Assembly: GCA_001910725.1 (NCBI GenBank)
Contig: MJGA01000054.1
Coordinates: forward strand, 1-64,000
Length of the DNA: 64,000 nt
Origin: Phanerodontia chrysosporium
Taxonomy: Eukaryota > Basidiomycota > Agaricomycetes > Polyporales > Phanerochaetaceae
Direction: 5' to 3'
Positions 13,537-59,171 of the stretch are shown here, in pieces (position 1 is the first letter of the stretch; every line of letters starts with the position of its first letter). The notes under the pieces were generated by a model. It ran no database searches and was not told the DNA's origin. It saw nothing but the letters and a program-made list of their open reading frames with translations. Made by a program: the position numbers and the translations under genes.

Positions 13537-13551
13537 ACTAGGTCAGTGTAG

Positions 13552-14521
13552 GCCGTGAGTCGGCGAGTACGATTTCTTCATGCTTGAGTACTAAAATAAA
13601 TAGTATATTTGAAATACAGTGGCTTTTATAAAGAATGTAATAGAATTAGCACTGAAATTTTTTGCGGTGCTGTTTGTTGCACTGAGCAGAATGGGTGATG
13701 TATATTCAAAGGATTAAATTGGTTACTTGTTTTGCAGAGTCATATTTGCCATAGTAAGCCTTTCATTAATTACAATTTTGGATATGCACACTTTATATTA
13801 TATATGAATATTACATGCATTTAATTAATGTTATACATATATCTACAGATATTCAGGGGCTGATGCATGCCAAGAGGCCTAGTTTCATTGTGTTATTTTT
13901 AGCAATCACTATAAATGCTCACTTCTTTCTTGACATTCAATATGAAAAGTCAAATGCCTCAACTCTTGATCCTGACCCTAGCTCTGTACTCTTTAATTGT
14001 AGTATATAATCTTTCATCGACTTTAAATTGCTTGTATCCATCGTGCATCACACTATAGCAAACTAATTGCTCAGTTTACCAGGATTTATAAAGAATAACA
14101 GAACAAATATTGCATAAAAGACTACAAGCCTGCTATATTGTTTAGTCAAGTTCTATTGAGCATTCAGGTATATGATATCTTCTTTGATCCAGATTTGTAT
14201 ATGAGTTCTGCCTTGATTTACCAGCACTTTGGCCAAAACATTTTTTTTCTATAATAATCTTCACTTTCACTTCATTTTCAGATGTGCACCTATTTTAGGC
14301 TCATTTGCATGAAACAAAATGCATCTGACATTTACTAACCTTGTCCGTAAAGTATGTATATATATTAGAGCCACATGAGACCTTGTATAAGAACAAAAAC
14401 TCAGTTACTTTTGAAAGAGAATATATGACATTATAAACTTTAATCCTTGAGATAAAGTCTTATAAAACCAGTGCATTATCTCTATGCCATACAGGCATCT
14501 AGCACATGTCCCAGTTGGAAG
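13552..14521. other. AT-rich non-coding block
   Basis: About 970 bp without a convincing ORF, rich in TATATA and ATTAAT. It is repeated inverted at 58187-59156. I see no gene in it. Confidence 0.6.
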
Positions 14522-15120
14522 TATCATAAAAATGCGCTGCTCTAGCACCTATATACCAAACCAACCAGCAATACTTACTGGCAAAGGTTTACTTGGATTA
14601 CAAAGGGTGTAGCCAAGCTTGAAGACGAAGTATAGAGACTAGAGAGGTGAGATGCAATGAGATTGAAGCTGGGGAGACATCCCAGCCCTCAGAATTTATA
14701 TACATGTGCACCAGGTCCCCGGGGACCGGTGTTCAGGGTTCTAGCTATCTAATATCTACTATGCTATTGGCTAGTGCCCTATAGACATTTCTACATTCTC
14801 CTACACGTTCCTAAATGTTCCTACAATGTCCCAGAAACCTCCAGAACGTTCCAGCACTGTCCAGACCTGTTCAGAGACCTCCAGAACTTTCCAGTCCATT
14901 CTGGAGTGTCTCGGCGCTTTCAGACCCTTGTCTACTTCTAGACCTTCGACTATGTGACTCTGGAACACTGCACGTGTGCGCCTCACGTGACTGCCATATC
15001 ATGTGACCAGCTCCGAGCCTAGGGCTATCACTCCAGTGCTTCTGCATGTTACAGTTCGGAGTAATCGCTTCTGTCACCTGCTGCCCCTAACCCTAAGGGT
15101 TGAGATGCAAAACTGTGACA
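14522..15120 (-). repeat. Diverged LTR of family B (B', 599 bp)
   Basis: Ends TATCATAAAAATGCG and AACTGTGACA, that is a B LTR on the minus strand, with many substitutions relative to the 600-bp B LTRs. The flanking pentamers (GGAAG and CCCAC) differ, so it is not a clean solo insertion. It cuts the copia relic on its right and may be the remnant of a larger, partly deleted element. Confidence 0.75.
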
Positions 15121-16162
15121 CCCACCCATCTGGCTCTCAGCCTTCCCTAGCAGAGTCTCACCCCAGATGCACCATCAAGCCTCCTAGTGAATGGTGGAAG
15201 GTCAAGCCAGCTTCGTCTGGCCAATCTGCCCAGCCTGCTCAATCAGAGCCCACTGCTGAGAAACCTCGTTAATAGAATGATGTTCCACTATCAGACACCT
15301 CCACAAACGAGCTTTGTCTTAAGACTGAGGCTGCAGGGGATACTTGGCCGAATAGCTGGAGTGCTGTGATGAAGCAATCTGATGCAGAGGAATGGAAGAA
15401 GGCAGCCCACGCTGTGATTGAGGTCCTATTTGCCAATGAGATTTGGGAGCCCTGTGCTCTTTCTCCAGGCAAGGGGGCCATCACTAATCGCTAGGTCTTT
15501 GTGCAGAAATTCTTTCCTGACGGTAAGCTGAAACACTACAAGGCCCATCTTGTAGTCAAAGGCTATGCTCAATGACCTGGCTTCGACTATGTGGAGACTT
15601 TTACCCCTACAGCATGCATGGCCTCCATTCAGATTGTCCTTGCACTGTCCACACTCGAGGACCTGGACTTGCACTCTATTGACATCTCAAACACCTACAC
15701 TAATGGCATACTAAAAGAGGAGGTCTACATGCAGCAACCTGAGGACTTCCACTTTGGCCAACCTGGCAATATCCTGCAACTCAGAAAAGCACTGTACAGT
15801 CTCAAACAAGCTGGACATGTCTGGAACAAGACTCTACACGCTACACTGCACGATCTAGGTTTTACCTGGTTCAAATCTGATGCCTCGCTCCACCTTTACC
15901 ACAGGGATGCCGCCGGGATTATCATGCCTGTCTTTATTGATGACATCACCATTGCCTCCACCAGTGCTGCTGAGACTGACCACATAGTGCAATAGCTCTC
16001 TGACTACTACAAGCTTCGCGACCTGGATCCCACATCCTTCCTGCTAGGTATTTAGATTATGTGGAATCGTCCCAACCACTGCATCTCCATCTCACAGCGT
16101 CAGTACATTCTCGATATGCTAGAGTATTCTGCTCCTCTGTGCAGACATCCATGAATCCTGGT

Positions 16163-16762
16163 TGTCACAGTTTTTCGTCTCAACTCTTAGGGTTAGGGGC
16201 AGCAGGTGACAGAAGCGACTACTCCGAACTGTGACATGCAGAAGCGCTGGAGTGACAGCCCTAGGCTCGGGGCTGGTCACGTGATACGGCGGTCACGTGA
16301 TGCGCACACGTGCGGTATCCCAGGGTCACATGGTCAAAGGTCTAGAAGCAGGCAAGGGTCTGGAAGCGCCGAGACACTCCGGAATGGACTAGAAAGTCCT
16401 GGAGGTCTCTGGACAGGTCCGGACAGTGCTGGAACGTTCTGGAGGTTTCTGGGACATCGTAGGAACATTTAAGAACGTGTAGGAGAATGTAGGAATGCCT
16501 GTAGGGCACTAGCCAATAGCGTAGTAGGTATTAGATAGCTAGGACCCTGAACACCGGTCCCTGGGGACCTGGTGCACATGTATATAAACCCTGAGGGCTG
16601 GGGGTGCCTCCCCAGCTTCAATCTCATCGCATCTCACCTCTCTAGTCTCTATACCTCGTCTTCAAGCTTGGCTACACCCTTTGTAGTCCAAGTAAACCTT
16701 TGCCAGTGAGTATTGCTGGTTGCTTTGGTGTATAGGCGCTAGGGCAGCGCATTTTTGTGATA
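16163..16762 (+). repeat. Solo LTR of family B (600 bp) in the left repeat
   Basis: Starts TGTCACAGTTTTTCG and ends TTTTTGTGATA. The 5-bp TSD is CTGGT at 16158-16162 and 16763-16767. It has the same length and ends as the LTRs of gypsy H, so H-family elements inserted here before the 7.15-kb unit was copied; its partner is at 55946-56545. Confidence 0.9.
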
Positions 16763-17106
16763 CTGGTAAGCGGTTGTCTACAGCAGACTGTTTCTCCACT
16801 CGAGAAGAGCACGCTGCCATGCAAAATCTTCCCTATATCAGTGCTGTTGGCTTCCTCATGTGCCTTGCCACCTGCACTCATCCTGACATTGTCTATGCAG
16901 TCCTTGTGCTAGCTCACTTTAATGTGAACCCTGGCCAGACCCATTGACAGGCAATCAATCACTCTTCTAATACCTCAAGGGCTCTCTGAACTTGCAGCTC
17001 ACCTATGGGCCTGCTGCAATGAAGGAGCTCTTTGTGACCTACTCGAATGCTGACTATGCCGGAAACTCTGACACATATCAGAAGTGCACGGGAGGTGGCG
17101 CTTCTG

Positions 17107-17500
17107 GTAAGGGGCGACCGAGAGGCTCAGTCGGGTGCGCAGGACCTGTAGGCGAATGCTCAGTCCAGTAAACTCAGAGTAATCAAGTCTCTATCATGTA
17201 TTTGTAGGGGGACGCTCAGTCCAGTAACTAATACATGCATTAGTACATTACTGGAGTTCGCAGGTATGAAGGAAAATGCACACTTAGAGTAATCAAGTCT
17301 CTAAGTGTCAAGAGGGGGCTGTGGAATGTATATAAAGGAGCGGGGACGATTATCAAAGCTATAACTATACAGAAATTACCATGAAAGGGAGGCTGTGGTA
17401 TTAGCCTTGATCACCCAAAGGTGTTTTGCTTCCGCGCCACACGGCAGACGGTTGTCGGCACTTGCGTGAACCCACTGCAAGTCCGGCGCAAGTTTGCACA
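17107..17500 (+). other. Unassigned insertion-like segment in the copia RNase H
   Basis: Coding similarity to copia RNase H is lost here. The segment has a repeated phrase AGAGTAATCAAGTCTCT (about 17178 and 17287), a purine tract GAGGGGG followed by TGTGGAATG, and a TATA box (TATATAAAGG, about 17330). This looks like the end of another LTR element, but I cannot define its borders. Confidence 0.4.
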
Positions 17501-17935
17501 TCACTTTGACAACACACTGTGCTCAACTGGTGCTTACATTGTCATAATGGGCACTGGTGCTATGAACTGGAGCAGCAAGCTGCAGACTGTGGTGGCACAG
17601 ACTACCACAAAGGCGGAGTACATAACTGCCAATCAGACTGGCTGGGACATTGCCTGGATGTGCAACCTACTTATAGCTTGGTTACAATCTCTCTCACTCC
17701 CCGTTGACGCTCTACATGGATAACAACTCTGCTATTGCAGTGGTCAAGAATTCTGAGCATTTTGGGTGATTGAAGCGCATTCAGCTGCACCTCTACTGAC
17801 TGCACGATGTGATAGAGAATGGCCAGATCTCTCCGGAGTATGTCTAGACTGACCTGATGGTTGCAGACATCCTGACCAAGGCTCTGTCTGTGGCCAAGGT
17901 TGCTGCACTCTGTCGCCTTATGGGCTTGCAGTAGA

Positions 17936-18300
17936 TGTGCTCAATGTGGGGGGGGGGGGGGGGGGGGCCTGTGCAGAGACATCCTGTATCAGGGGGAGCA
18001 TTAGTTGTGTCCTTTGTGATGCAACCGCCCCTCTGCACTCAGCGGCTCTCAGTGGCCCAGTGGATTGACCAGGTGCAGTGGCCCTCATGGGCCACTGACA
18101 AAGAAGTCCCTTTGTACTCTTTTCCTTTGTCCCTTTCACTTTCATTTCTTTGTTCTTAGTTCGCTTTGATCCCCTCTGTAGGATAGTATATAAATCGTGG
18201 GGGTAGTGCCCTGAGCTCTTCAGTTGCTCACCTACTATCACCAGATCAGTAGTTCACCCTTTGCTCCAATACATTTGGTTGCTTGCTCACTACCACCAGT
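17936..18300 (+). repeat. Copia 3' end: poly-G, polypurine tract and LTR start
   Basis: Directly after the copia stop there is a 20-G run, then TCAGGGGGAGCA, which resembles a copia polypurine tract, then an LTR-like segment with a TATA-like box (GTATATAAATC, about 18185). LTR borders are uncertain because the 5' LTR is missing. Confidence 0.5.
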
Positions 18301-20685
18301 GTGATGCAGAGCACTCCTGTAGTCGAGTTCACCTCCTACAATGAACATCTACAGTATATTGCATGTCCATATATCCACTGCACTCTAACACCCCCTATAA
18401 AATATGATATCATGTACAAGTACTATAATTATCTGTTAAAAGCTTCTCTGATGGAAGATGTAGCTAGCTCACCCTTGCAAGGCTATGTATATTGTCAGGT
18501 ATAATATAGCGCGCATGCATGGATGGCTGCTATCATAAACAATTGTATCCTGAAAGGGCCCCTCCTTGGTGAGGCTATACAAATATATTTATTGAAAACT
18601 GCGAAATAAACAGATTAAGCTTCATCCACAGGCTCTATTCTGCCGGGATTGCTGGAGTCAGTGTGATAATACAGCAGCCATATATACGTACTATGCAGAT
18701 GCCAGCCATACTCTGTATATACAGGTCTAGACCTATATATACAAAGAATAGAATAAATATCCAATTTCACAAGATATTGAGCATTATAGAGCCTTTCCTG
18801 CCATCAAAGTTTGCTTCACAGTTTATACAAAGTTTGGCACTATATCAGACATTCCTTTCCATATATGTACACTATCCAGAAGCCACTGGTAGAGTTGAGG
18901 ATGCTACTTAATTTATTTCGATTTTAGAAGTAGAAATCGAGCCATCGCGCTGTGTTGCCTTTCTGGGCAGGTGCGATCAAACTGTATCCCAATGTAATAC
19001 ATGGCCGCGGATTATTTGCGCATTTTACCGGGATTTATAGCGCACCCCGGAGTGTACTAAGGCGCAAATACTCCAGAAAAGACCCCAACTAATGGCAGTG
19101 CTTAGTCATATCGTTTCACGTACGTAAAGACGCATCCTTGATGTCCTAGGTGTTTTTACGTACGTAAAACGATTTTACACACCAGCGCTTAGGTGGTTTT
19201 TCGGCCGAAACAATATTTTCTAGCTCAATCTTCACCACCTCCTCTATTTTCGCTTTTCCCCACCTTGGAAGCTCATCCAAGGTGCACAGCATGCATCCAG
19301 TGTATACACATGCTCTACATAGTGTGTATATACATGTTTGAGCCCTGTGCAGGCTCTGTACCATGAAGGGACACCAAGTTAGGTCTGAAAATAAATATAT
19401 TTCGTTATTTTCCTCTATTTTCAGGAATGGGGCCCTTTAGACCCACAGCGCACTTCATCCATGTGGCCTGGAAAGCCACGTGGGCAGCCCACATATCTGT
19501 CGGCCGAAGGCCAAGGCTAGCACACACAACACTGATGACTCAGCAGGTATCCTGGCTCAAAGTAGAGCTATCACTGTAAGCTCTTTGGAGTGTGGTATAT
19601 AGCCCTATAAATCGACATAAAATGCGCATATAATTGTCATCGTATACTTATAGTGTCATGCACTCGCTATTAACCCCTGTAAACTGATGGCCCTTCCCAA
19701 TATGGCAATCTTCACCTTGATCTGCTTCTAAAGGTAATATATCTATATCTTCATTGTTTCACATGATATATTGCTACATATATTCCAGTGAACTTCACCA
19801 TGATGTGGCTGCAGACATATATATATATACATACATGTCATGTATGTCAGGTAAGGCCTACAGTGAATATTCTTTGATAAGTCGATGTTATATTTGTAGG
19901 TCTCTTTACAATGCATGACAATTGCTCATTATATTCATGTATACTCACGTGGTATGTGTGCTATATATCCAGTATTCGCTCAGATCAAATATACCCTCTA
20001 TATAGTAGAACGGGCTAATTCGCGGGAAAATACCATAAATAATCATATTTGCAGAGAATAGTAGCTTTACATTATATGTACAGCTCTATACATGCTTCAT
20101 GAACTGCAAATAGATGTATACATAATATACATGTGTGTGTATTTGGCCTAGAACACCTAGAGCAAGACGATCACTGCAGTTCACCTAAGTGAGCGCTTAA
20201 TATAGGTACATCTGCTGCTTTGATCCCTTGCCATCCACCTCAATACACCTAAGAACCCTCAACATATATACATATTCTGAATACCCTCATCAAGCTCTGT
20301 CCATTGATATACTATACATGCTATTGTGGCTACATTTGAGATTGGGCCTATATAAAGCCTGATGTAAGCGCTCAACATTGAGCACACTGGTGAACAGTGA
20401 GCTTAAGGCATAGCATGTTTTCATGGATACCAATAGGTAGCCCAAGGTCTATAGTCATGGTATATACAAGGGCATGTTCTGAAACACAGTATAAAAGGCT
20501 ATAAAAATCGAGAAAGATTTACTTCAAAGTTTGTAATGAACCCTAACCTCAGATTGATGGCCAAATCTATTGGGACTACAATAAAAGTTCCCACACCTTC
20601 GGCCAAAGTTCGTAACGGTGTACAAAAGCTCCAAAGTGCCCAGTCGCCGAAAGAACGATTCTTCATTTACATTCAGAAATCGTAA
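18301..20685. other. AT-rich part of the repeat, no gene seen
   Basis: About 2.4 kb with only short, poorly supported frames. At 19114-19172 two near-palindromic arms with a TACGTACGTA core face each other. The right-copy equivalent of 19455 is the target of the MULE; the site is empty here (CCACAGCGC, 19455-19463). No domain is recognisable. Confidence 0.6.
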
Positions 20686-20907
20686 TATCTTGCTGGCGTT
20701 CTTGGATTGCTCATTACGTTGCGCGGGGGCCGAGAGTCTGGTTCAACCGAGAGTGAGAAATCGTGTTGCAATAATGGAAAGGCCATTACCTGTCCAAATA
20801 GCAGCCCATGTTGGGGTACGCCTGCGAGGTCAGCTGGCCTTTTCTTATTTCTCCTGCTGCTCCTCTGTTAATCTCAAGTCACAGCGCATCCACTCACCTG
20901 GCCTACA

Positions 20908-23900
20908 ATGGACGAGTCAATCCGATTCAAGCACTCTCAGCGCTCTGATGAAGACACGAGTTGCGGGGATGGAAAGCAGCCAGCGGGCGCAGACCCATCC
21001 CCGAAATCGAACGACCGACGCGATGAGCCCTGGTGCGAATCCTCAGATGATGACGGTGACGATGAGTACAAGCCTAGCGATGACGTAAATGAGGGCGATA
21101 CGCGTTCTGATGGGGAAGACGGACCTGAAGGCGAGCTAGAGAACAGCAAGGAAGATGAAGAAACAGTGAGCGACAATAAGGGCAAGACAAGGCTGCACGC
21201 CGGTTAAAGTGTCACAGACGGCGTGGAGGCGAACATCAGAGAGCAGGAGCAGGAGGATGGTGGTCAGAACAGCAATGGCGAGGGCGGAGAGGGCGAGGAG
21301 GATGGCGGCGAAGAGGTGGACGGCGGCGTGCGCGTGGGCGGTGGCGCACACAAGGGCAGCAGCGGGGATGGGAGTGGGGCTGAAGTCAGCAGCTTCAGTC
21401 CTCGTCGCGCGAAGACCACTGCCGAGAGGAAGGAGGCCAAAGGTGGCAAGGCTGGCCACCCAAATCGGTTCAGAGGCGACGAAAGAGCCTTACTGGATAC
21501 GCACAGTGAGCGCTACATGGACGTCGTGAAGAAGCCATCTGGAAAGCGCAAGGGGTTAGCCAAGTTCTGGGTCAACATCGAGAACACTTACTGGGCAAAC
21601 TTCACCGTAGCCCAGGCAAGAGTGTCGATGGGCTCTAGAGGGACGAAGTTGAGCGACAAGGAGGTCGTCGCGATGACTAACAAGGTGAGTACTTACACTG
21701 CTGCACCTTGACCATGGCTGATATCTTGCAGTCCTTTCGAAATCACTATCGGTATCAGCATCAGAACGTCGCCGCGGGAATGTCGAACCCTTGGAAGTTT
21801 ATGCCAAAAGAGCTCGAGGTCACCGAGAAGAGCAGTACGAAGAAGAAAGCCGCATACTCACTTTGGCATAGCGACCATAAAGACGCCGTCAGTGATGAGA
21901 CGAAACGTCGCGGCTTGACGTCTATCGGACAACGGAACATTCTCGCCAACGCTCTCTTCAATGCACTCCCAGATGCAGAGCGCGCAGCCTACGAGCAGAA
22001 GTCGTTAGATCTGCAAAAAGCTGCCGCAGTGCAAAAGGCCGCACCTCCTTCTCAACCATCTGAAAAAGACCAAGAGACATGAATACTCACCAATCTCGAT
22101 TCCATGCAAGCAATTGCTCGCTGACGTAGATATTGGGCCAGGGCAAGGAAGCATCTTGCACGGGCGCTGTGGCCAGTTATGAAAGTCATCGCGAGGACCA
22201 CCGGCATGCCGTATGTCAGCGTGATCGCGGGAGCCCCGCGTAAGGCCGGAGAGGCCAAATGCTGTGTGGCTTGTGTTCATTTTGGGGAGACGAAGGATCG
22301 CGAGCTGAAGAACTTTGGCAAGTGGAATGCGCAAGGGTTCAGCACACATGTTCTCGGGCAATTTGGCCACTTCCTGGAGTATATGCGGGGTAAGTAATGC
22401 CATTTCTACTGGATCAATGACTCACTTCTTGATAGATCCTGATGTTGGCGGCCCTGACGCACCGGTGGAGAACCTTAACCTGACGCCCAGGCCTGGTGAG
22501 GATGCTCGCACGCAGCCACGCCCATTGTTGGAAAGTGGTAATAGCGGCGATCCCTCTGACACGACGCCCTTTGACGAAGGTCTGCAGCCTGAGCAGAACG
22601 GCAACACTCAGCAGCTCCAAGGCAGTAACGACGACGAACCTGTGCCCCTACTGCAGACAGGAGCCTCGGAGGCCTTGATCACCGAGGTCGCTGGCATCCA
22701 GCCAGTTGCTGCCCGCATTGTCCGCATCAAGGACCTGAACAGCCTGTGCGAGTCGGAGTTTGAGAGGGAAAGTCGAGTAGCGTTGAACAGGGCACTGACA
22801 TCGATGGCGGCTGTACCCAACAACGCGCTTCACCCCTCCAAGAAGGGTGAACAAAAGGCGGGTGCCACAAAGAAGACACCGAAAGCGGTTGGGAATCAAG
22901 CCCGGTGCTCGGGCCGGCTTGCCCACTTGGGCAGGACTAATCCGGGAGCCGCAGGTTCGCGGTCCCCATCTCCTCGCCCTTCGTCTCCTCGCCCTTCGTC
23001 TCCTTGCCCTTCGTCTCCTCGCCCTTCGTCTCCTCGCCCTTCGTCTCCTCGCCCTTCGTCGCCTTGCCCCTCACCGCCTTGCCCCTCGCCTCCGCACCTT
23101 TCGTCCCCTGGCCAAACCACGCTTCAAACTCGTGGGAGTCTTCTTGCTCCCTCTGTGGTTCATGGCGGCCTTCTTGCACCAGCTGCGCCCAAGGTCTCAG
23201 CGTCCTACAAATCATTAGCAACTAGCCGCAGCTCGCAGCCCCTGCCTTTGGCTCTGCTCCATCATGAAGACGTTCTTGCTAAGCGGCACATCTCTGCTCC
23301 TCCAACTGTTGATGCCACTCGGGCAGCGCGCGTCCCTACAGTCGGTGATGTGAGTAATGTACCCGTGGTAACTGACATCACTGACAGCAGCGGGGCGTCT
23401 TCACAGCACGAAGACCGACTCGATATAGCCGACACTGCTTTGTGGCCGGCGTGGATGAAACTGTTGCACAGCAAGTACGTGGACATCACGTGGATTCCTG
23501 AAGAGACCAAGGGGGTGTGGGGCGAGATGGTAGAGGACTGGGTGCACTTGGAGACATATACAGAATTTTGTTCGCTGGTACGTAGCTTGTTCTTCTTGAC
23601 TATCACGACTAACTGTGCCTTAGAAAGAAGGCTTTGCTAAGGCAGCATGTCCTAGCGAAGTCACATACTGGATTGCATGCGGCCGAAGACCGCCAGTCCG
23701 AGTTACCGCGGAGCGAAGGTATGATTATGCCGAGAAATGGCATAAGTGGTGGTGTGCAATCAACCCACCGTGGAGGAAGGCTGTCAACAATCACCTGAGC
23801 TCCGGCAAGAACGGTGATTGGTCTCCCATGTTTGCCCCAGGGCCCAATGGCTTCGCCACGGTTATTGGCGCTCTCATTGCCTTGAGGAACGCTACTCCCG

Positions 23901-24088
23901 CTGCAGACTGGTTGGCTACCGTTCAAGATGTACGCTGGACCATCGGCAGGGTTTTGCACACCCGTAGAGCTAGAGGGTGAGTTATTTGTTCTCTAATGTG
24001 ACCTAGATTGACGCAGTCATAGGTTCAAGCGTGCAGGAGACACAACAAAGACCTCCAAACGGCCCTCGAAGAAGCGACGCACTAAGTA
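20908..24088 (+). pseudogene. Spliced accessory gene of the KDZ element, Agaricomycete-type family of unknown function
   Basis: From ATG 20908: an acidic Asp/Glu-rich N-terminus, then an RFRGDERALLDTHSERY region and a helical segment (KKAAYSLWHSDHKDAVSDE; RNILANALFNALPDAERAAY) loosely like an HMG-box. Next come a block with MKVIARTTGMPYVSVIAG, a Pro/Ser repeat, and a C-terminal Trp-rich block (KWHKWWCAINPPWR, DWSPMFAPGPNGFATVIGAL) ending in a basic tail (KRPSKKRRTK). Introns fit at 21686-21730, 22391-22435, 23580-23631 and 23977-24021. A TAA at 21205 breaks exon 1, and the donor needed near 22073 reads AT instead of GT. From memory, proteins of this layout are common in mushroom genomes; I know no function. 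Confidence 0.6.
22966..23110 (+). repeat. 15-bp coding minisatellite
   Basis: About nine tandem units of TCGTCTCCTCGCCCT encode a Ser-Pro-Arg-Pro-Ser type repeat in the accessory gene. Later units are degenerate (TCACCGCCTTGCCCC). Confidence 0.85.
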
Positions 24089-24403
24089 GCTGTGGATGCT
24101 CTCGTGGATGTGTATACTACCTTCTGTAATATGTACGAACATCTTGTAACTCCGGTACAGCTAACGCTGTGCAGGTCGAATGTAATTCACAATTTCTTGA
24201 ATTTCAGCTTCGGCATGGTGAAGGTGCCAAAGTGGCTGATGTCTCCTTGTGCAGAGTCACATGCGCACAGAGGACACCTGACGTGACACTCCCATGGGCA
24301 TGCAATGCTAGAAGAGATATAGTGCACCGGAAGTGATATACACTGCTTGTATGTAGCACTGCCCAGACAACACAGAGTTTTTTGCGATTATATATATGTT
24401 CTT

Positions 24404-24851
24404 TTTATTTTTGAATTGACTCGCCACGCGTAGCAGATGAGGGGTTACCAGGATGCGCTGAGGGGAGGGGAAAATGTTATACTACTATACCGTGCATGCA
24501 GAATATATCCACATATCATAGGATTTTCTCGGATTTTCCTATTATTTTCCCGCACTTTTTCAGCATTTTTCCTCGCATTTTTCTCTCCCTTTCCCCGCAT
24601 TTTCCCGCGGACCGGTCAGCGTTTTCGAGCTTGCTCAAAGGTCTTGGATGACGTACGCATATGTTTGAGCGCTTCAGAATATTCCTATGTTTTTCCAGTC
24701 TGGCATTCTCCGGGGGTTGGGAACGCGAGGGGCGCACGTTGCGCCCGGGTGCGCCCACGTGGCCGCCACCAAGCTGCTGGGTCGCTCGATTCAGCAGTGT
24801 TTTGATGGGAGAGGGCCCAACGGTCCAAGTCCGGCATCACCTGAATATATG
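24404..24851 (+). repeat. KDZ element terminal repeat, inner part (copy 1)
   Basis: Nearly identical to 62328-62778. It contains subterminal iterations of GCATTTT and TTTTCC (about 24540-24606). Gypsy D is inserted at 24852, and the outer part of this terminal repeat continues at 37979-38230. Confidence 0.85.
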
Positions 24852-25109
24852 TGTAACCCTGGAAGGTTACGACGAACGGACGAACGACGAGACCTTCCTT
24901 ATCTGGAGGTCTCCCGACCCATTGCCTTATTTGGTTGTTAAATACCGACCGCCTTCGTCGTGCGCTCCTTAGCTTACGCTACCACGACGAAGGTATGTTT
25001 TCCGTGCTCCCACTTGTATATTAGCTTAGCTTACGCTACCACGACGAAGCCTGTTCCCTTCTCGCCTCGTGTGACGCTCGGAGTGTAGCCGACCGCCTCT
25101 CGGCTTCCA
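24852..25109 (+). repeat. Gypsy D 5' LTR (258 bp)
   Basis: Starts TGTAACCC and ends CGGCTTCCA. It contains an inverted repeat CCTTCGTCGTG / CACGACGAAGG and two copies of GCTTACGCTACCACGACG. I find neither a tRNA-type nor a self-complementary primer site after it; the next bases are a T-run. Confidence 0.9.
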
Positions 25110-29956: not shown

Positions 29957-29991
29957 TTACCCCCAATTCTAGCTGAACCTCCTGGTGAAGC

Positions 29992-39232: not shown

Positions 39233-39252
39233 GGGGCCGGAGTGACGCCGCA

Positions 39253-41820: not shown

Positions 41821-41876
41821 CGACATCGCTCTACAACATCGCCTACACGCACAACTGCCTCTACCAACCCTTCACA

Positions 41877-43235: not shown

Positions 43236-43274
43236 GTCGGTCTCGACAGAGCTCGACCCTGGACAGGGACGTAA

Positions 43275-44136: not shown

Positions 44137-44141
44137 GTTAG

Positions 44142-44936: not shown

Positions 44937-44976
44937 GTACCCCCTCTTCAGATTCGAACTCCCGAGAGAAGACTTT

Positions 44977-46728: not shown

Positions 46729-47971
46729 TTACGATTTCTGAATGTAAATGAAGAATCGTTCTTTCGGCGACTGGGCACTTTGGAGCTTTTGTACACCGTT
46801 ACGAACTTTGGCCGAAGGTGTGGGAACTTTTATTGTAGTCCCAATAGATTTGGCCATCAATCTGAGGTTAGGGTTCATTACAAACTTTGAAGTAAATCTT
46901 TCTCGATTTTTATAGCCTTTTATACTGTGTTTCAGAACATGCCCTTGTATATACCATGACTATAGACCTTGGGCTACCTATTGGTATCCATGAAAACATG
47001 CTATGCCTTAAGCTCACTGTTCACCAGTGTGCTCAATGTTGAGCGCTTACATCAGGCTTTATATAGGCCCAATCTCAAATGTAGCCACAATAGCATGTAT
47101 AGTATATCAATGGACAGAGCTTGATGAGGGTATTCAGAATATGTATATATGTTGAGGGTTCTTAGGTGTATTGAGGTGGATGGCAAGGGATCAAAGCAGC
47201 AGATGTACCTATATTAAGCGCTCACTTAGGTGAACTGCAGTGATCGTCTTGCTCTAGGTGTTCTAGGCCAAATACACACACATGTATATTATGTATACAT
47301 CTATTTGCAGTTCATGAAGCATGTATAGAGCTGTACATATAATGTAAAGCTACTATTCTCTGCAAATATGATTATTTATGGTATTTTCCCGCGAATTAGC
47401 CCGTTCTACTATATAGAGGGTATATTTGATCTGAGCGAATACTGGATATATAGCACACATACCACGTGAGTATACATGAATATAATGAGCAATTGTCATG
47501 CATTGTAAAGAGACCTACAAATATAACATCGACTTATCAAAGAATATTCACTGTAGGCCTTACCTGACATACATGACATGTATGTATATATATATATGTC
47601 TGCAGCCACATCATGGTGAAGTTCACTGGAATATATGTAGCAATATATCATGTGAAACAATGAAGATATAGATATATTACCTTTAGAAGCAGATCAAGGT
47701 GAAGATTGCCATATTGGGAAGGGCCATCAGTTTACAGGGGTTAATAGCGAGTGCATGACACTATAAGTATACGATGACAATTATATGCGCATTTTATGTC
47801 GATTTATAGGGCTATATACCACACTCCAAAGAGCTTACAGTGATAGCTCTACTTTGAGCCAGGATACCTACTGAGTCATCAGTGTTGTGTGTGCTAGCCT
47901 TGGCCTTCGGCCGACAGATATGTGGGCTGCCCACGTGGCTTTCCAGGCCACATGGATGAAGTGCGCTGTGG

Positions 47972-48076
47972 ACTTGAGCTTAATGTCCCAGCGGGTTTGT
48001 CCCACTTTCAAACTCCGTGCACGTGGGATCAGCGCTACCGTCCCTGACGCGGCGGCGCTTGTCCACTGGGTCCTTC
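47972..48076 (+). repeat. MULE left terminal inverted repeat (about 105 bp)
   Basis: Matches the reverse complement of 52436-52555, with two substitutions over the first 93 bp and a 15-bp insertion (an extra GGCGCTTGTCC-like unit) in the right arm. Confidence 0.9.
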
Positions 48077-48409
48077 AATGCGTCGCGGTCACTGTAGGCT
48101 CGGAAGTCTTTTTCTGCTCACTTCGTAGCCAAATGTGGTATTTCCTAGGGTGGGTTATTGGTCCAATAGCCCGTTTATGCCATTTTTAGATACAAGAATT
48201 CTTAGCAATTCTGATCTTTAAATGGATGTTGTCGAGCGCTTCCAATACCTCAGGCTCTGGTGTCACCTCGGGTAGCATGTTTGCTGACGCGCAGAGACAT
48301 ATGGGTTTCCTTACCGCTACAAAACGGTGAGGTATATCCTCGTAGAAGGGATAACGTTGTGTAGATAGTTGTTACATATTATAAATCCCGCACAAGCTCC
48401 TTTTTTCAA

Positions 48410-48481
48410 GGATCGGTAGCTGAGTTAGTTAATTGCTCTCATTGAGAGGTTCTCGTGCGTGTTCGAATCACGCTGGTAATT
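48410..48481 (+). other. tRNA-like sequence inside the MULE
   Basis: A-box-like TAGCTGAGTTAGTTAATTG (48417-48435) is followed by a perfect T-arm, GCGTG-TTCGAAT-CACGC (48457-48473), at tRNA spacing. The acceptor arm does not pair (GGATCGG against TGGTAAT) and the anticodon arm is CTCTC-ATT-GAGAG with too small a loop. It is more likely a tRNA pseudogene or a pol III promoter relic than a working tRNA. Confidence 0.4.
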
Positions 48482-48681
48482 TCTATTTTTATTTTTATCG
48501 CCTCTGAACCGTCAGAAGTGCTCGGTTGCTCATTATGACCCCCGTTGCTTCCTATGCAGGTCATATTTTGATTTGTGAATGGTCCTGTTTCGCTCTGGGC
48601 ACTAGCAAACCTCACCATTCATGTCAAAGAAGCTGAAGATATTATTTTTAAATATAACCGGAATTTATTATGTACAGTGTA

Positions 48682-51600
48682 TCAGCGGTGAGGAGGGGTA
48701 GAAGGACGGTAAAAATGCATGTTACTGGAGGTGTTGGTGACTGGCATAGAGCGGCGGTTCGCATGGTGTTCAATTTCTCGTGCAAAATTGGCTGCGGCCT
48801 TGGCCTTCTTCATTGCAGTTAATATCCACCGCTGGTCTGCGTCGTCTCTATGGTCGTCGATCTCCTTCGCAAGAAGACGCAGCAGCCGTGCGCACTCACC
48901 AGCCTCGGACTCAATCACATTGTCGAGCTATGCAGTCAAGCGCTCAGCTTCTCGCTCGTTATTTGATTGCTAGTGAACGCACCTCGAAGCCGGCACCTCC
49001 ACCTGCGCGTGTGCGCATTATACCATCTCGTCCCGTTGGTGGAGGCTTCGAAGGTGAGGAGTTGATCTGTATAATGCCAATAAGAGCGAGGCGGAAGCTT
49101 ATAGAGGCCTGGCAACTCACTGGACTTGACGGACATGTTTGCAGCAGCTCAGGATCACTGCTTTCAGCCTCAGCATCCTCCCCTCGTGCACTTGACCTTG
49201 CTCCATCGTCCATGCGCGAGAGCCAATCGTAATTCCGACGAGATTCAGGAGAGGGAGCAACAACACCGTTGATTGGGACGGTGTAGAAGGGCGGGATATG
49301 ATACCGGGTGACACGGATCCAGAACTCGGGGGGGGAGAGTGCCTACCGCCTGCACAAGGTGCTTGCAGAGGAGGAAGGAATGGTATTTCTGTGCCCCGCA
49401 GTCACACGTCCACTTCTGAATGGAGGTTGCATAGTTACCCTTAATAGCAGCCTTCATCAGAGCTTCTCAGGAACGTTTGAAGGCTTCCTGCATGTGCGTG
49501 ACAGATTCTGGGCGGCCGCCCTCGCGACTCGTGATCAGACTGTAGAAGGTGAGCTGATACGGGGGAAGACTCTTCGTGATGATCGAGAAGTTGGTGAGAT
49601 CAAGCGGAGGGCGGTTGTACATGTGCAAGACGAGCCTCTTGACATTGCGCCAAAGCGCCTCGACCATCATCGTGGTGCGGTGAACTGGAATGCTCTTCGG
49701 ATTGGCCGCCCGAGCCCAGAGCTTCCACTTCTTTGGCACATACCAATTATTCCAAAGGTATGCCCAGACCTCGCACAACCGATTCACCTCGCAATGCCGA
49801 TACATTTCGTAGACCGCATCACGGTAGATGTCGTCGTGCGAACGTGCACAGCCATGACGCTCAGGGAGGAATGGATGTTGATTTGCGTGCTTGGCGAAGA
49901 GGCGCAAGATCGGAATGCGATGGATGGCTGGGCAGAAGACATAGTTCTTGGGCTTCGCAGCCTTGCTGCGTCCAGGAGCGGTGTTGGGCCCCAAAGCTGG
50001 TGTAGACGTGGATGTGGCGGCGGCTGCAGTGGCGTTTGCCTCAGCAGTGACCTCCTCTCGAATCTCGCGCGCGAATTGCACCAATTCAGCGCGACAGTCT
50101 TGGGAGGCGTCGTCCATCCATTCTTCATCTTCGTCGTCCCAGTCTATCTCCCATTCTTCATCTGCCTCTACATCACCTGCCGCCTGCTTCTCGGCTAGAT
50201 CTCCCCAGCCAGTTCCATCATCACTCCGCTCATCATCAGACTTCTGACCGTTCTGACCAGGTGTCTGAGTTCTGATAGAAGAGATGACTTCGCCTGCTTT
50301 CTTTGTGACAGCGGCGGCGTCTTGCTCTAGGTCGAAGTCCTCTATAGGCTCAGCGTCGTCTAAGGGACATGCTTGGCCCATGTGGCGAGCAGGAATTCGG
50401 ATGATGAGCTTCTGCATTGGGACCACATCTTGAGATGGTGGATCAGGCAGTCGCTCTGGAGGTGAGTTCATTGGCTGCCCAGAAAGTGGTGTTAACGGCG
50501 TGAGAACAGATGGTCGACCATTGATGAGCAAGCGAAGCCGGGGGATAGGTGTCGAGGGCGGCGGCTCGATTGCCTGTCCAGGCTGTTGCTGAGCCCACGG
50601 TACGAACTTCACGTCGATGAAATCAAATAGTTCATGCGCGTACTCAGCGTCATAGTGGCCAGGCTGTTCATCATTCTTCGGAAGGGGCTGCTTGAGAGCT
50701 CGGAGAGCATGCCAGAAGCATAGCTGATGTTTAGCGTGGGGAAAGACCGCACCCATAGCGTTTATCTCTGATTGATCCTTGTCCGTGAGTACAAACTCTG
50801 GGTTGACGCCACGGGCCTTGAGGCAGCGCAGGAAGCGTTCTAAGACTTCCTGCTTTGCCCCAGACTCAGCATTCTGATCGGTCTGCACGTAACAGAACGC
50901 CAACGGTATTCCTGAGCCCTCCACCCCTGCAACCGCCGCAAACAGCTCATAGTTTGCGCCATTCGTTCCGACTTTTCAGGTAAGGATCAGTACCACATCA
51001 CACAGATAGGACGAGCTGATCTTACACGTTGAGTCCATGGCAAGCTCCTGTGTGTGCGGGGCCCACCGATCGAGAACATCGGTGACTTCAAAGGCAAGTA
51101 CATGTGTTCCAGGTGCTTCTTGGACATCGAGAAGCTTGACTTGATGCTCGTCTCCATGCTCAGCAATGAATTCAACTGCAGACTCAAGGGGGTCCTTTCG
51201 CAACTTCCAGCTGTCTTGGCTCGCTAAGTGCCAATAGTAGCGGACGGCGTGGGATCTGAAGGGAAGTGTCTCTGGGGCTTCTTCTGCAATGATGTGGCGC
51301 CATATCTGACCTATCGTCAGCTTCTACCCTCTACTGTGATATCATATCGTCACGCACCTGTCCGGAAAGCAAATCCCGTGCGTGCGTGTCGATATACTGC
51401 TTCCACTTGTCAGGGAGTGCGATATCCACATAGGGGAGGTGTGTTTCGATATGCTTGAGCTTGATATTGACATATGTTGACGTTTCTGATGCGTATATAT
51501 GCAGCCAACCGTCGCAAGCGTAGCGGGTCATTCGACGACTTGCCCGTGCCTTTCCCCTCTCCTTCTTTGGCTGCTGCCCTCGGTCTTCGGACTGTGCGCA

Positions 51601-52110
51601 GCTGAACGAGAAGACAATGTCTTTGGTGCGTGCACGGTCTCGTTTCGTCTCATAGCTATGGTTCAAATGATATATATCGGCTAGAATCGAATTTAAACGA
51701 GGTGCGCACCTCCAGTGCAGTCTCATGTACTCTCCGACATGCTGAGAGACTAGCCGTGCCCTCTCCTTCGCAGATACACCGTGGGGGGCTAGAGAGACCG
51801 TCTCTATGCGTGCTGAAGCGGTCAAGTGCGGGTTTTTGACCTCGTCTTCAAGGTAGGCCAAGAAGGAGTCGAGCGACCACTCGGGGAAGTCCTCCGCAGT
51901 GTCATCGCCATCGGATTCAATGGCGTCCTCAAGCCTGTGCTTCCGCCTTGAGGCTTGCTTACGCTCGGCAGCCTTTTTTCAGCACCCTGTGCAGTTAGGC
52001 CCCAATTGGCCCGGGTGCGTTCTGCTCTGCACAAATTCTTCGTCTGGTCTTGCTTCACCACATCCTTTGCAGGTCTTCATAAGCAAGAGCGCTTTGGGAA
52101 AGGCCCAGAG
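48682..52110 (-). CDS. MULE transposase with SWIM zinc finger (several exons)
   Basis: Minus strand. N-terminal Cys pairs (CKGCGEARPDEEF...NCTGC, about 52080-51980), then WSLDSFLAYLEDEVKNPHLTAS, a helical region, the RYACDGWLHIYASETSTYV block (about 51520) and the first catalytic Asp in ELAMDSTC (about 51040). An intron with a GTAAGA donor fits at about 51026-50971. Then GTNGANYELFAAVAG, the second Asp in EFVLTDKDQSEINAM, FPHAKHQLCFWHALRALK, an unusually long acidic linker (about 50600-49990), and WAYLWNNWYVPKKWKLWARA with HRTTMMVEALWRNVKR for the Glu. The SWIM finger is WTCDCGAQKYHSFLLCKHL (about 49410-49350). A coiled tail ends near 48682. Exact exon borders are uncertain. Confidence 0.8.
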
Positions 52111-52435
52111 GCAGGCTTTAGAGGGCTAAGGGGAGATAGTGGTGCAGGCAGCTGGTTGCAGGACTCAGCAGCGGTAAACACAGCGACATGTTTCCCTCGC
52201 AAGGAATCTACCAAGTAAGGCTCATTTCTAAGTATTCTGAATGCTGTATAATGTCAAGCCTAATGCGCAATACACTCATGCCTTTTCACTTCTGAGTGGG
52301 CGCTCATAGCCTTGTCTATTGCTGATCAGTGGGGCTTGAAAAGGGTATGAAGCACCATTTTGTAGCGGTAAGAAAACTCATATATTGCTTTTGTTACCCG
52401 CTTTGATATACTTATACAAGGGGCGGCCAGCGGGC

Positions 52436-52555
52436 GAAGGACCCAGAGGACAAGCGCCGACAGGACAAGCGCCGCCGCGTCGGGGACGGTAGCGCTGATC
52501 CCACGTGCGCGGAGTTTGAAAGTGGGACAAACCCGCTGGGACATTAAGCTCAAGT
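52436..52555 (-). repeat. MULE right terminal inverted repeat (about 120 bp)
   Basis: Partner of 47972-48076, longer by one GGCGCTTGTCC-type unit. Confidence 0.9.
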
Positions 52556-54574
52556 GCGCTGTGGGTCTAAAGGGCCCCATTCCTGAAAATAGAGGAAAAT
52601 AACGAAATATATTTATTTTCAGACCTAACTTGGTGTCCCTTCATGGTACAGAGCCTGCACAGGGCTCAAACATGTATATACACACTATGTAGAGCATGTG
52701 TATACACTGGATGCATGCTGTGCACCTTGGATGAGCTTCCAAGGTGGGGAAAAGCGAAAATAGAGGAGGTGGTGAAGATTGAGCTAGAAAATATTGTTTC
52801 GGCCGAAAAACCACCTAAGCGCTGGTGTGTAAAATCGTTTTACGTACGTAAAAACACCTAGGACATCAAGGATGCGTCTTTACGTACGTGAAACGATATG
52901 ACTAAGCACTGCCATTAGTTGGGGTCTTTTCTGGAGTATTTGCGCCTTAGTACACTCCGGGGTGCGCTATAAATCCCGGTAAAATGCGCAAATAATCCGC
53001 GGCCATGTATTACATTGGGATACAGTTTGATCGCACCTGCCCAGAAAGGCAACACAGCGCGATGGCTCGATTTCTACTTCTAAAATCGAAATAAATTAAG
53101 TAGCATCCTCAACTCTACCAGTGGCTTCTGGATAGTGTACATATATGGAAAGGAATGTCTGATATAGTGCCAAACTTTGTATAAACTGTGAAGCAAACTT
53201 TGATGGCAGGAAAGGCTCTATAATGCTCAATATCTTGTGAAATTGGATATTTATTCTATTCTTTGTATATATAGGTCTAGACCTGTATATACAGAGTATG
53301 GCTGGCATCTGCATAGTACGTATATATGGCTGCTGTATTATCACACTGACTCCAGCAATCCCGGCAGAATAGAGCCTGTGGATGAAGCTTAATCTGTTTA
53401 TTTCGCAGTTTTCAATAAATATATTTGTATAGCCTCACCAAGGAGGGGCCCTTTCAGGATACAATTGTTTATGATAGCAGCCATCCATGCATGCGCGCTA
53501 TATTATACCTGACAATATACATAGCCTTGCAAGGGTGAGCTAGCTACATCTTCCATCAGAGAAGCTTTTAACAGATAATTATAGTACTTGTACATGATAT
53601 CATATTTTATAGGGGGTGTTAGAGTGCAGTGGATATATGGACATGCAATATACTGTAGATGTTCATTGTAGGAGGTGAACTCGACTACAGGAGTGCTCTG
53701 CATCACACTGGTGGTAGTGAGCAAGCAACCAAATGTATTGGAGCAAAGGGTGAACTACTGATCTGGTGATAGTAGGTGAGCAACTGAAGAGCTCAGGGCA
53801 CTACCCCCACGATTTATATACTATCCTACAGAGGGGATCAAAGCGAACTAAGAACAAAGAAATGAAAGTGAAAGGGACAAAGGAAAAGAGTACAAAGGGA
53901 CTTCTTTGTCAGTGGCCCATGAGGGCCACTGCACCTGGTCAATCCACTGGGCCACTGAGAGCCGCTGAGTGCAGAGGGGCGGTTGCATCACAAAGGACAC
54001 AACTAATGCTCCCCCTGATACAGGATGTCTCTGCACAGGCCCCCCCCCCCCCCCCCCCCCACATTGAGCACATCTACTGCAAGCCCATAAGGCGACAGAG
54101 TGCAGCAACCTTGGCCACAGACAGAGCCTTGGTCAGGATGTCTGCAACCATCAGGTCAGTCTAGACATACTCCGGAGAGATCTGGCCATTCTCTATCACA
54201 TCGTGCAGTCAGTAGAGGTGCAGCTGAATGCGCTTCAATCACCCAAAATGCTCAGAATTCTTGACCACTGCAATAGCAGAGTTGTTATCCATGTAGAGCG
54301 TCAACGGGGAGTGAGAGAGATTGTAACCAAGCTATAAGTAGGTTGCACATCCAGGCAATGTCCCAGCCAGTCTGATTGGCAGTTATGTACTCCGCCTTTG
54401 TGGTAGTCTGTGCCACCACAGTCTGCAGCTTGCTGCTCCAGTTCATAGCACCAGTGCCCATTATGACAATGTAAGCACCAGTTGAGCACAGTGTGTTGTC
54501 AAAGTGATGTGCAAACTTGCGCCGGACTTGCAGTGGGTTCACGCAAGTGCCGACAACCGTCTGCCGTGTGGCGC

Positions 54575-55269
54575 TGTTGCGGAGCAAGGGCTCAACGCCG
54601 CACGAGGGAGGACAGATGGGGAGGACGACCGACGAGGCGCGGCGGAGCGAGTCACGCAGCGACGTACAACTTATTCAGCTGTCCGTATTGACCAAGATAT
54701 CATTAGTGTTTGTAACTACAATACAAGCGGGGGCTTACCTGTCCGTATTGACCAAGAGGTCGAGATGACGGACAGGAGCGAGAGGTGCTACCTATATATA
54801 CTACAAGAGTTCAGGGCAGGCTATACGATTACATAAGCTGATGGGCAGCGCTCAGCATAGCCAGCGAGGCTGCGACGCGGGCTGCGCGGCGAGGCTGTGC
54901 TGGGGCTATGTCACGAGGCTGTGTCAGCTGGCAGTGTCTCGAGGCTGCGTCGGGTCGAGGCTGTGTCATCAGGCTGATCAGCTCGGCGTGTCTCGGCGAG
55001 GGGAGTCATCAGGGATGACAGTGCCTCCTCGGCGATCCGGGGAACTGGTTGCAGGGCAGACCGGTGATCCGGGCAGTGTCTGAGCGCGCAGCGGGATGCG
55101 CTGGCGTCTAGGGGTGATGCGCCATCAGGGCGCTGGCGCTGCATGGCCAGGCGCTGAGTGTGGGCGGCTAGGACTCCAGACGGCGCGAGGGCTGCTCGCC
55201 CGTTGGAGTAATCGAGGAAAATAGCCAAAAATCGGCGAAAAATAGGGCAGCACCGTCACATCCGTGACA
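54575..55269 (-). repeat. Solo LTR of family A (copy 4, 695 bp)
   Basis: Ends TGTTGCGG and CCGTGACA. The TSD is GGCGC at 54570-54574 and 55270-55274. It is absent from the left repeat, which shows the empty site at about 17430-17445. Confidence 0.92.
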
Positions 55270-55945
55270 GGCGCGGAAGCAAAACACCTTTGGGTGATCA
55301 AGGCTAATACCACAGCCTCCCTTTCATGGTAATTTCTGTATAGTTATAGCTTTGATAATCGTCCCCGCTCCTTTATATACATTTCACAGCCCCCTCTTGA
55401 CACTTAGAGACTTGATTACTCTAAGTGTGCATTTTCCTTCATACCTGCGAACTCCAGTAATGTACTAATGCATGTATTAGTTACTGGACTGAGCGTCCCC
55501 CTACAAATACATGATAGAGACTTGATTACTCTGAGTTTACTGGACTGAGCATTCGCCTACAGGTCCTGCGCACCCGACTGAGCCTCTCGGTCGCCCCTTA
55601 CCAGAAGCGCCACCTCCCGTGCACTTCTGATATGTGTCAGAGTTTCCGGCATAGTCAGCATTCGAGTAGGTCACAAAGAGCTCCTTCATTGCAGCAGGCC
55701 CATAGGTGAGCTGCAAGTTCAGAGAGCCCTTGAGGTATTAGAAGAGTGATTGATTGCCTGTCAATGGGTCTGGCCAGGGTTCACATTAAAGTGAGCTAGC
55801 ACAAGGACTGCATAGACAATGTCAGGATGAGTGCAGGTGGCAAGGCACATGAGGAAGCCAACAGCACTGATATAGGGAAGATTTTGCATGGCAGCGTGCT
55901 CTTCTCGAGTGGAGAAACAGTCTGCTGTAGACAACCGCTTACCAG

Positions 55946-56545
55946 TATCACAAAAATGCGCTGCCCTAGCGCCTATACACCAAAGCAACCAGCAATACTC
56001 ACTGGCAAAGGTTTACTTGGACTACAAAGGGTGTAGCCAAGCTTGAAGACGAGGTATAGAGACTAGAGAGGTGAGATGCGATGAGATTGAAGCTGGGGAG
56101 GCACCCCCAGCCCTCAGGGTTTATATACATGTGCACCAGGTCCCCAGGGACCGGTGTTCAGGGTCCTAGCTATCTAATACCTACTACGCTATTGGCTAGT
56201 GCCCTACAGGCATTCCTACATTCTCCTACACGTTCTTAAATGTTCCTACGATGTCCCAGAAACCTCCAGAACGTTCCAGCACTGTCCGGACCTGTCCAGA
56301 GACCTCCAGGACTTTCTAGTCCATTCCGGAGTGTCTCGGCGCTTCCAGACCCTTGCCTGCTTCTAGACCTTTGACCATGTGACCCTGGGATACCGCACGT
56401 GTGCGCATCACGTGACCGCCGTATCACGTGACCAGCCCCGAGCCTAGGGCTGTCACTCCAGCGCTTCTGCATGTCACAGTTCGGAGTAGTCGCTTCTGTC
56501 ACCTGCTGCCCCTAACCCTAAGAGTTGAGACGAAAAACTGTGACA
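55946..56545 (-). repeat. Solo LTR of family B, right repeat copy (600 bp)
   Basis: TSD ACCAG at 55941-55945 and 56546-56550, the complement of CTGGT in the left repeat. It is part of the duplicated unit. Confidence 0.9.
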
Positions 56546-57587
56546 ACCAGGATTCATGGATGTCTGCACAGAGGAGCAGAATACTCTAGCATATCGAGAA
56601 TGTACTGACGCTGTGAGATGGAGATGCAGTGGTTGGGACGATTCCACATAATCTAAATACCTAGCAGGAAGGATGTGGGATCCAGGTCGCGAAGCTTGTA
56701 GTAGTCAGAGAGCTATTGCACTATGTGGTCAGTCTCAGCAGCACTGGTGGAGGCAATGGTGATGTCATCAATAAAGACAGGCATGATAATCCCGGCGGCA
56801 TCCCTGTGGTAAAGGTGGAGCGAGGCATCAGATTTGAACCAGGTAAAACCTAGATCGTGCAGTGTAGCGTGTAGAGTCTTGTTCCAGACATGTCCAGCTT
56901 GTTTGAGACTGTACAGTGCTTTTCTGAGTTGCAGGATATTGCCAGGTTGGCCAAAGTGGAAGTCCTCAGGTTGCTGCATGTAGACCTCCTCTTTTAGTAT
57001 GCCATTAGTGTAGGTGTTTGAGATGTCAATAGAGTGCAAGTCCAGGTCCTCGAGTGTGGACAGTGCAAGGACAATCTGAATGGAGGCCATGCATGCTGTA
57101 GGGGTAAAAGTCTCCACATAGTCGAAGCCAGGTCATTGAGCATAGCCTTTGACTACAAGATGGGCCTTGTAGTGTTTCAGCTTACCGTCAGGAAAGAATT
57201 TCTGCACAAAGACCTAGCGATTAGTGATGGCCCCCTTGCCTGGAGAAAGAGCACAGGGCTCCCAAATCTCATTGGCAAATAGGACCTCAATCACAGCGTG
57301 GGCTGCCTTCTTCCATTCCTCTGCATCAGATTGCTTCATCACAGCACTCCAGCTATTCGGCCAAGTATCCCCTGCAGCCTCAGTCTTAAGACAAAGCTCG
57401 TTTGTGGAGGTGTCTGATAGTGGAACATCATTCTATTAACGAGGTTTCTCAGCAGTGGGCTCTGATTGAGCAGGCTGGGCAGATTGGCCAGACGAAGCTG
57501 GCTTGACCTTCCACCATTCACTAGGAGGCTTGATGGTGCATCTGGGGTGAGACTCTGCTAGGGAAGGCTGAGAGCCAGATGGGTGGG

Positions 57588-58186
57588 TGTCACAGTTTTG
57601 CATCTCAACCCTTAGGGTTAGGGGCAGCAGGTGACAGAAGCGATTACTCCGAACTGTAACATGCAGAAGCACTGGAGTGATAGCCCTAGGCTCGGAGCTG
57701 GTCACATGATATGGCAGTCACGTGAGGCGCACACGTGCAGTGTTCCAGAGTCACATAGTCGAAGGTCTAGAAGTAGACAAGGGTCTGAAAGCGCCGAGAC
57801 ACTCCAGAATGGACTGGAAAGTTCTGGAGGTCTCTGAACAGGTCTGGACAGTGCTGGAACGTTCTGGAGGTTTCTGGGACATTGTAGGAACATTTAGGAA
57901 CGTGTAGGAGAATGTAGAAATGTCTATAGGGCACTAGCCAATAGCATAGTAGATATTAGATAGCTAGAACCCTGAACACCGGTCCCCGGGGACCTGGTGC
58001 ACATGTATATAAATTCTGAGGGCTGGGATGTCTCCCCAGCTTCAATCTCATTGCATCTCACCTCTCTAGTCTCTATACTTCGTCTTCAAGCTTGGCTACA
58101 CCCTTTGTAATCCAAGTAAACCTTTGCCAGTAAGTATTGCTGGTTGGTTTGGTATATAGGTGCTAGAGCAGCGCATTTTTATGATA
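57588..58186 (+). repeat. Diverged LTR B', right repeat copy (599 bp)
   Basis: Inverted duplicate of 14522-15120. Confidence 0.8.
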
Positions 58187-59171
58187 CTTCCAACTGGGAC
58201 ATGTGCTAGATGCCTGTATGGCATAGAGATAATGCACTGGTTTTATAAGACTTTATCTCAAGGATTAAAGTTTATAATGTCATATATTCTCTTTCAAAAG
58301 TAACTGAGTTTTTGTTCTTATACAAGGTCTCATGTGGCTCTAATATATATACATACTTTACGGACAAGGTTAGTAAATGTCAGATGCATTTTGTTTCATG
58401 CAAATGAGCCTAAAATAGGTGCACATCTGAAAATGAAGTGAAAGTGAAGATTATTATAGAAAAAAAATGTTTTGGCCAAAGTGCTGGTAAATCAAGGCAG
58501 AACTCATATACAAATCTGGATCAAAGAAGATATCATATACCTGAATGCTCAATAGAACTTGACTAAACAATATAGCAGGCTTGTAGTCTTTTATGCAATA
58601 TTTGTTCTGTTATTCTTTATAAATCCTGGTAAACTGAGCAATTAGTTTGCTATAGTGTGATGCACGATGGATACAAGCAATTTAAAGTCGATGAAAGATT
58701 ATATACTACAATTAAAGAGTACAGAGCTAGGGTCAGGATCAAGAGTTGAGGCATTTGACTTTTCATATTGAATGTCAAGAAAGAAGTGAGCATTTATAGT
58801 GATTGCTAAAAATAACACAATGAAACTAGGCCTCTTGGCATGCATCAGCCCCTGAATATCTGTAGATATATGTATAACATTAATTAAATGCATGTAATAT
58901 TCATATATAATATAAAGTGTGCATATCCAAAATTGTAATTAATGAAAGGCTTACTATGGCAAATATGACTCTGCAAAACAAGTAACCAATTTAATCCTTT
59001 GAATATACATCACCCATTCTGCTCAGTGCAACAAACAGCACCGCAAAAAATTTCAGTGCTAATTCTATTACATTCTTTATAAAAGCCACTGTATTTCAAA
59101 TATACTATTTATTTTAGTACTCAAGCATGAAGAAATCGTACTCGCCGACTCACGGCCTACACTGACCTAGT

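Follow-up and report, generated by a model that had tools for sequence, protein, structure and literature searches.

How did the halves of several mobile elements come to lie apart, around two nearly identical and inverted copies of one repeat? The question is raised by a stretch of 64,000 bp (the window; positions 1–64000 of the 113,190-bp contig C96), in which the repeat, here termed X, is present as X1 and X2, and in which a KDZ-type DNA transposon, the gag gene of a gypsy element (gypsy F) and a further gypsy element (gypsy C) are each found in two separated parts. Our answer is that the segment 20686–46728 was probably inverted by exchange between the inverted X copies. The arms were compared by self-BLAST of the window, domains were assigned with Pfam, and copies elsewhere were sought in the whole assembly of 39.0 Mb and 145 contigs. 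A search with Rfam at the gathering threshold gave zero matches across the window.

The two arms are X1 at 13537–20685 (plus strand, with its own rolling-circle sense on the minus strand) and X2 at 46729–59171 (minus strand). Their alignment consists of three inverted blocks, where 55270–59171 matches 17438–13537 (99.97%), 52552–54574 matches 19455–17434 (99.95%), and 46729–47971 matches 20685–19443 (99.92%). Over the 7149 bp of X1 the copies differ by two substitutions (17324 G/A and 19544 C/T) and one indel, a difference in the length of a G-run at 17947. A preliminary description of this DNA had placed the inverted arms at these same positions, X1 at 13537–20685 against X2 at 59171–46729, and had correctly noted the G-run base and two later insertions in X2, but it overlooked the two substitutions. 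That two copies on a single contig should agree at 99.9% over 7.1 kb goes far beyond what chance would give.

Both insertions in X2 are well delimited. One is a MULE-type transposon (47972–52555, minus strand) with a MULE domain, 93-bp terminal inverted repeats, and the 9-bp target-site duplication GCGCTGTGG on both sides. The other is a solo long terminal repeat (LTR; 54575–55269, minus strand), with the target-site duplication GGCGC at 54570–54574 and 55270–55274. The exact empty sites of both are intact in X1, and the MULE-type element and the solo LTR therefore postdate the last sequence shared between the X copies.

Support for a 26-kb inversion, or flip, between the X arms, as proposed in the preliminary description, comes chiefly from the KDZ element and the gag gene, and in part from gypsy C. 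One arm of the KDZ element (20686–24403, minus strand) borders X1 and occurs in one place only in the assembly. It had been described as an accessory gene; the ORFs (open reading frames) 21208–21708 and 22309–23637 of this putative accessory arm gave no Pfam match. The transposase arm (59172–62327, plus strand) borders X2 and contains the KDZ domain (PF18758, E=6e-14) in pieces within 59418–59669 and 59717–60133, the first of which, with E=1e-4, is below the curated cut-off. The transposase arm is matched elsewhere in the assembly only by pieces of 74% and 68% identity, at C75, and the assembly yielded no further copy of either arm.

Beyond these arms lie the terminal repeats of the element. 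The right copy occupies 62328–63026 (plus strand), while the left copy (minus strand) is divided by gypsy E (24852–37978, plus strand) into an inner piece at 24404–24851, which is 98.7% identical to 62328–62775, and an outer piece at 37979–38234. Gypsy E has the target-site duplication ATATG on both sides, the second of which is 37979–37983, and the corresponding empty site is found near 62771. With gypsy E set aside, the 0.7-kb terminal repeats are identical in 676 of 700 columns. They are direct repeats in the present order and become inverted after the flip, as for a DNA transposon, and the two arms would be united in a single element, in keeping with the earlier proposal.

The same flip brings the two gag halves of gypsy F together, which had likewise been proposed. 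The 3′ part of gypsy F (38235–43441, plus strand) comprises the gag 3′ half, pol, a chromodomain-type ORF, and a 3′ LTR that starts at about 43275, and it holds an LTR-like insert at 40425–41104. The gag 5′ half and the part upstream of it are at 63027–64000 on the minus strand; the 5′ end of gypsy F falls beyond the window, and no gypsy F LTR was found on C96 past 64000 among the best 40 of 62 candidates. The gag halves are on opposite strands at present, and are continuous after the flip apart from a 7-bp duplication: the KDZ ends are bordered by GTGCTGC (38235–38241, plus strand) and ATGCTGC (63027–63033, minus strand), which are equal at six of seven positions and differ by one G>A change. 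At C85 (L070), the one intact site that was read, the gag sequence is CTCTTCC-GTGCTGC-CTATCGC. Places with either gag half were collected in two lists, in each of which the best 40 candidates were scored, of 131 and 127 at first look, and in all seven places common to both lists (C85, C36, C26, C60, C113, C55, and C69) the halves are adjacent and on one strand. A pair at C79 that is about 5 kb apart was treated as different copies and excluded from this count. Because the halves make up one gag interrupted by one KDZ element, 20686 and 59172 must once have flanked one X copy, and if these two positions belong together, 13536 and 46728 must have flanked the other.

Positions 13536 and 46728 are the inner ends of the two gypsy C parts. 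The 5′ part (6714–13536, plus strand) includes the 5′ LTR (6714–7245), gag, protease, and reverse transcriptase/RNase H regions (Pfam RVT_1 and RT_RNaseH), and ends at X1. The 3′ part (44405–46728, minus strand) consists of the integrase tail, chromodomain, and dUTPase, as assigned with Pfam, and the 3′ LTR. By self-BLAST the LTRs (6713–7245 and 44937–44405) are 97.9% identical. That the flip joins these parts, as had been claimed, is correct with respect to order and strand, but 138 bp are lost at the junction and the target-site duplications are unequal.

Several observations at this element weigh against a simple inversion. The 138 bp between the 13536 and 46728 sides, absent here, are present in all of the 28 gypsy C copies that were fetched for comparison, from 36 listed elsewhere in the assembly. 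The 5-bp target duplications of gypsy C in the window are GCCTC and GTGCA. The flank at 6119–6713 is unmatched among the best 40 of 194 candidates, and the flank at 44141–44404 is part of another repeat family, found in 26 other places, that abuts the gypsy C 3′ LTR; no continuation of this repeat was found beside the gypsy C 5′ LTR among the best 40 of 194 candidates. In addition, X lacks a target duplication and therefore offers no means of its own to tell the two orientations apart. An extra event is needed at gypsy C. We had considered whether gypsy C might be a third reunion without flaws and rejected this, since matching 5-bp duplications are found in both intact copies checked (CTTTC and CGAAG; 8590 bp at C124 and 8589 bp) and those in the window differ. 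The preliminary description had counted three independent reunions from one move, which is too many: the KDZ element and gag are nested and amount to one strong test in two parts, and gypsy C provides a partial one.

The loss of 138 bp and the unequal duplications mean that the present gypsy C halves cannot derive from one simple insertion. These features, together with the unmatched flanks, would follow from an exchange through X between two gypsy C copies that each carried X, and they could be taken to indicate that the halves in the window stem from separate copies of the elements, united by several X or gypsy exchanges rather than by one flip. We consider this very improbable as an account of the whole locus, as the halves of the KDZ element and of gag join with single-base precision, and as two unrelated X insertions at most 138 bp apart within 8590 bp, in the same orientation, would be expected with a probability of about 2% by our own estimate. 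On account of that estimate we also weakly prefer, for gypsy C itself, an insertion of X with a loss of 138 bp into an element already rendered chimeric through exchange with a different copy, over an exchange between two X-bearing copies. Private changes on the two sides are compatible with a single gypsy C element, and are non-diagnostic: there are 20 in 1000 columns on the 5′ side and 9 in 600 columns on the 3′ side, of which 14 and 7, respectively, are C>T or G>A. The 600-column comparison takes in L021, L037, and L038, all of which are disturbed by insertions or breaks.

As a separate observation on gypsy C, the region 44977–46338 (minus strand) encodes a dUTPase domain that follows the integrase chromodomain. 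This combination is also listed in proteins of other fungi, for example Phanerochaete sordida and Volvariella volvacea. The best protein match of the integrase–dUTPase ORF is 79%, in P. sordida, and a wood-decay fungus related to that species is therefore the probable host.

Returning to the inversion of 20686–46728 between X1 and X2, it must be asked whether it could be a product of assembly. The chromosome would then be uninverted, and the assembler would have passed between the X copies where reads did not span X. With three differing positions and two insertions, the X copies could hardly be phased by short reads, and neither KDZ arm was found a second time in the assembly, where it might show the other orientation. 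Against such a misjoin, the assembly resolves the 28 fetched gypsy C copies, although they are 95.2–100% alike over a 1-kb stretch, and two resolved copies of 8589 and 8590 bp each have their own target duplication, which suggests, indirectly, that the reads were long enough for the 7.15-kb X1. We regard a misjoin as unlikely, though it is the most serious of the alternatives considered, and take the inversion to be probably a true feature of the chromosome.

X belongs to a family of mobile repeats whose ends are fixed. In a genome search, other X copies were mostly 88–94% identical over stretches of more than 1 kb, and the closest such stretch, at C58, is 97.6% identical over 1.5 kb. At the 5′ end, in the rolling-circle sense, the match stops at an identical base in all 11 end rows from outside the window, some of which represent the same or near-identical places, and the 3′ end is likewise common to other copies. 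The terminal base, which is outside the search pattern, is identical in all 10 displayed starts, including those of X1 and X2. X1 is composite: nested inside it are LTRs and one more repeat. Many of these nested parts are also present in the C113 copy, from which the second LTR is absent. The ORF list has no ORF of at least 150 amino acids wholly inside X1.

A further alternative starts from a single X in gypsy C, the second copy having been made at the other breakpoint by staggered breaks or break-induced copying. Inversions that duplicate their breakpoints are a known phenomenon, and X1 and X2 are nearly identical at a level well above the 88–94% typical of other X copies. Both X1 and X2, however, stop exactly at the terminal bases of other X copies, which is what two transposon insertions would give, and we give very little credence to copying at the breakpoint.

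The ends of X have a distinct architecture. In the rolling-circle sense, the 5′ end reads TTACGATTTCT, with the asymmetric inverted repeat TACGATTTCT at its very 5′ end and a hairpin whose stem is ACGATTTCT/AGAATCGT. The other copy of the inverted repeat, AGAAATCGTA, stops 31 bp before the 3′ end, which reads GAAGAAATCGTACTC-GCCGACTCACGGC-CTACACTGACCTAGT and has CTAGT as its final letters. The 3′ hairpin, GCCG-ACTCA-CGGC, is present in X1 and X2 and disrupted in some copies, for example L003 and L078. No target duplication was seen by eye at three further copies for which both ends were read (one at C113, two at C13), and none is present at the window copies in the present or in the flipped order. 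The outer positions at the displayed X ends are both T, which could belong to the element, and on that strand the intact gypsy C site has TT. Judged from its ends alone, X looks like a non-autonomous element of the Helitron2/Helentron type, and it would have moved by rolling-circle transposition.

A Rep-helicase source for X was also considered. The profile Helitron_like_N has 17 matches in the genome, none of them linked to X ends. The nearest candidate, at C113:1285466–1285981, was rejected, since it falls outside the X copy C113:1287537–1294663. This match (minus strand) contains four stops and is located about 1.6 kb outside that near-complete copy.

If these assignments are correct, the history of the locus would begin with gypsy F, into whose gag the KDZ element landed. 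Gypsy E would then have entered the KDZ terminal repeat, and gypsy D would have entered gypsy E. Gypsy D (29357–36448) has LTRs that are 99.8% identical, and CCTCC flanks it on both sides by eye; it is therefore a recent insertion. Two X copies, carrying older nested insertions, would have inserted in opposite orientation, one into the KDZ element and one into gypsy C, and homologous recombination between them would have inverted the 26 kb and split the KDZ element, gag, and gypsy C. The breakpoint is somewhere within the near-identical arms, whose similarity prevents finer placement. The MULE-type element and the solo LTR would have entered X2 once the arms had last been homogenised. This order follows from nesting, by which neither gypsy E and D relative to X nor the exchange relative to the X2 insertions can be placed.

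The genomic distribution of X was noted separately. The X-family 3′ end has 13 sites on 7 contigs (a reversed control pattern gave 3 matches). Besides 13537 and 59171 in the window, clusters are found at C58:1434–1463k, C91:1136–1167k, C113:1295–1313k, and C13:738–763k. Nine sites fall within one span of 18–31 kb per contig on four contigs of more than 0.9 Mb, and the other large contigs have zero sites. Gypsy C copies, unlike the clustered X 3′ ends, are dispersed. From sequence, the X clusters look centromere-like.

A broader and rather unlikely interpretation is that X copies serve as hubs of recombination within centromere-like clusters where transposons are nested. The family would have flipped the 26 kb and, separately, joined two X-bearing gypsy C copies, the arms would be kept alike by continuing exchange, and both orientations may coexist in the species. 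The separate gypsy C exchange would account both for the absence of the 138 bp and for the target duplications that disagree. If the inversion is real, the succession of several nested insertions and a single inversion can be followed cleanly from target duplications and empty sites, and inverted, geneless copies of rolling-circle type can reshape a transposon-rich region, probably of a wood-decay fungus. Should the assembly be in error, the locus would serve as a caution on inverted repeats of 7 kb. Both outcomes would be useful and neither surprising. Inversion between inverted mobile-element copies is already known as a kind of event.

The KDZ element in the window resembles Kyakuja of Laccaria bicolor in its KDZ transposase domain and 7-bp target duplication (PMC12730594). 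The target duplications given there for KDZ elements are 7 or 8 bp long. Unlike the element described here, with its 0.7-kb terminal inverted repeats, the two Laccaria Kyakuja families are reported there without any such repeats.

The absence of a target duplication at X is a likeness to Helitrons, which generally leave none. Helitron2 elements of Fusarium oxysporum (FoHeli) have an asymmetric terminal inverted repeat and terminal hairpins, and X is similar in both respects; the distance of its 3′ repeat copy from the end, 31 bp, compares with about 20–40 bp in FoHeli (PMC5148889). Helentrons are described in the same text as inserting at TT. X is unlike FoHeli in its 7.15-kb length, nested insertions, and lack of a 150-amino-acid ORF, as well as in its ends (TTACGATTTCT...CTAGT), which differ from those published for FoHeli, and in its host, which is probably a basidiomycete.

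The proposed inversion itself belongs to a familiar class, namely inversion by ectopic recombination between inverted transposable-element copies. As in known cases, near-identical copies in opposite orientation are present at both ends, and both host elements are split. The window differs from these in that the gypsy C host has an extra deletion and unmatched duplications, and in that the segment consists mostly of nested mobile elements, so that an inner target duplication, as in gag, can reveal the original order.

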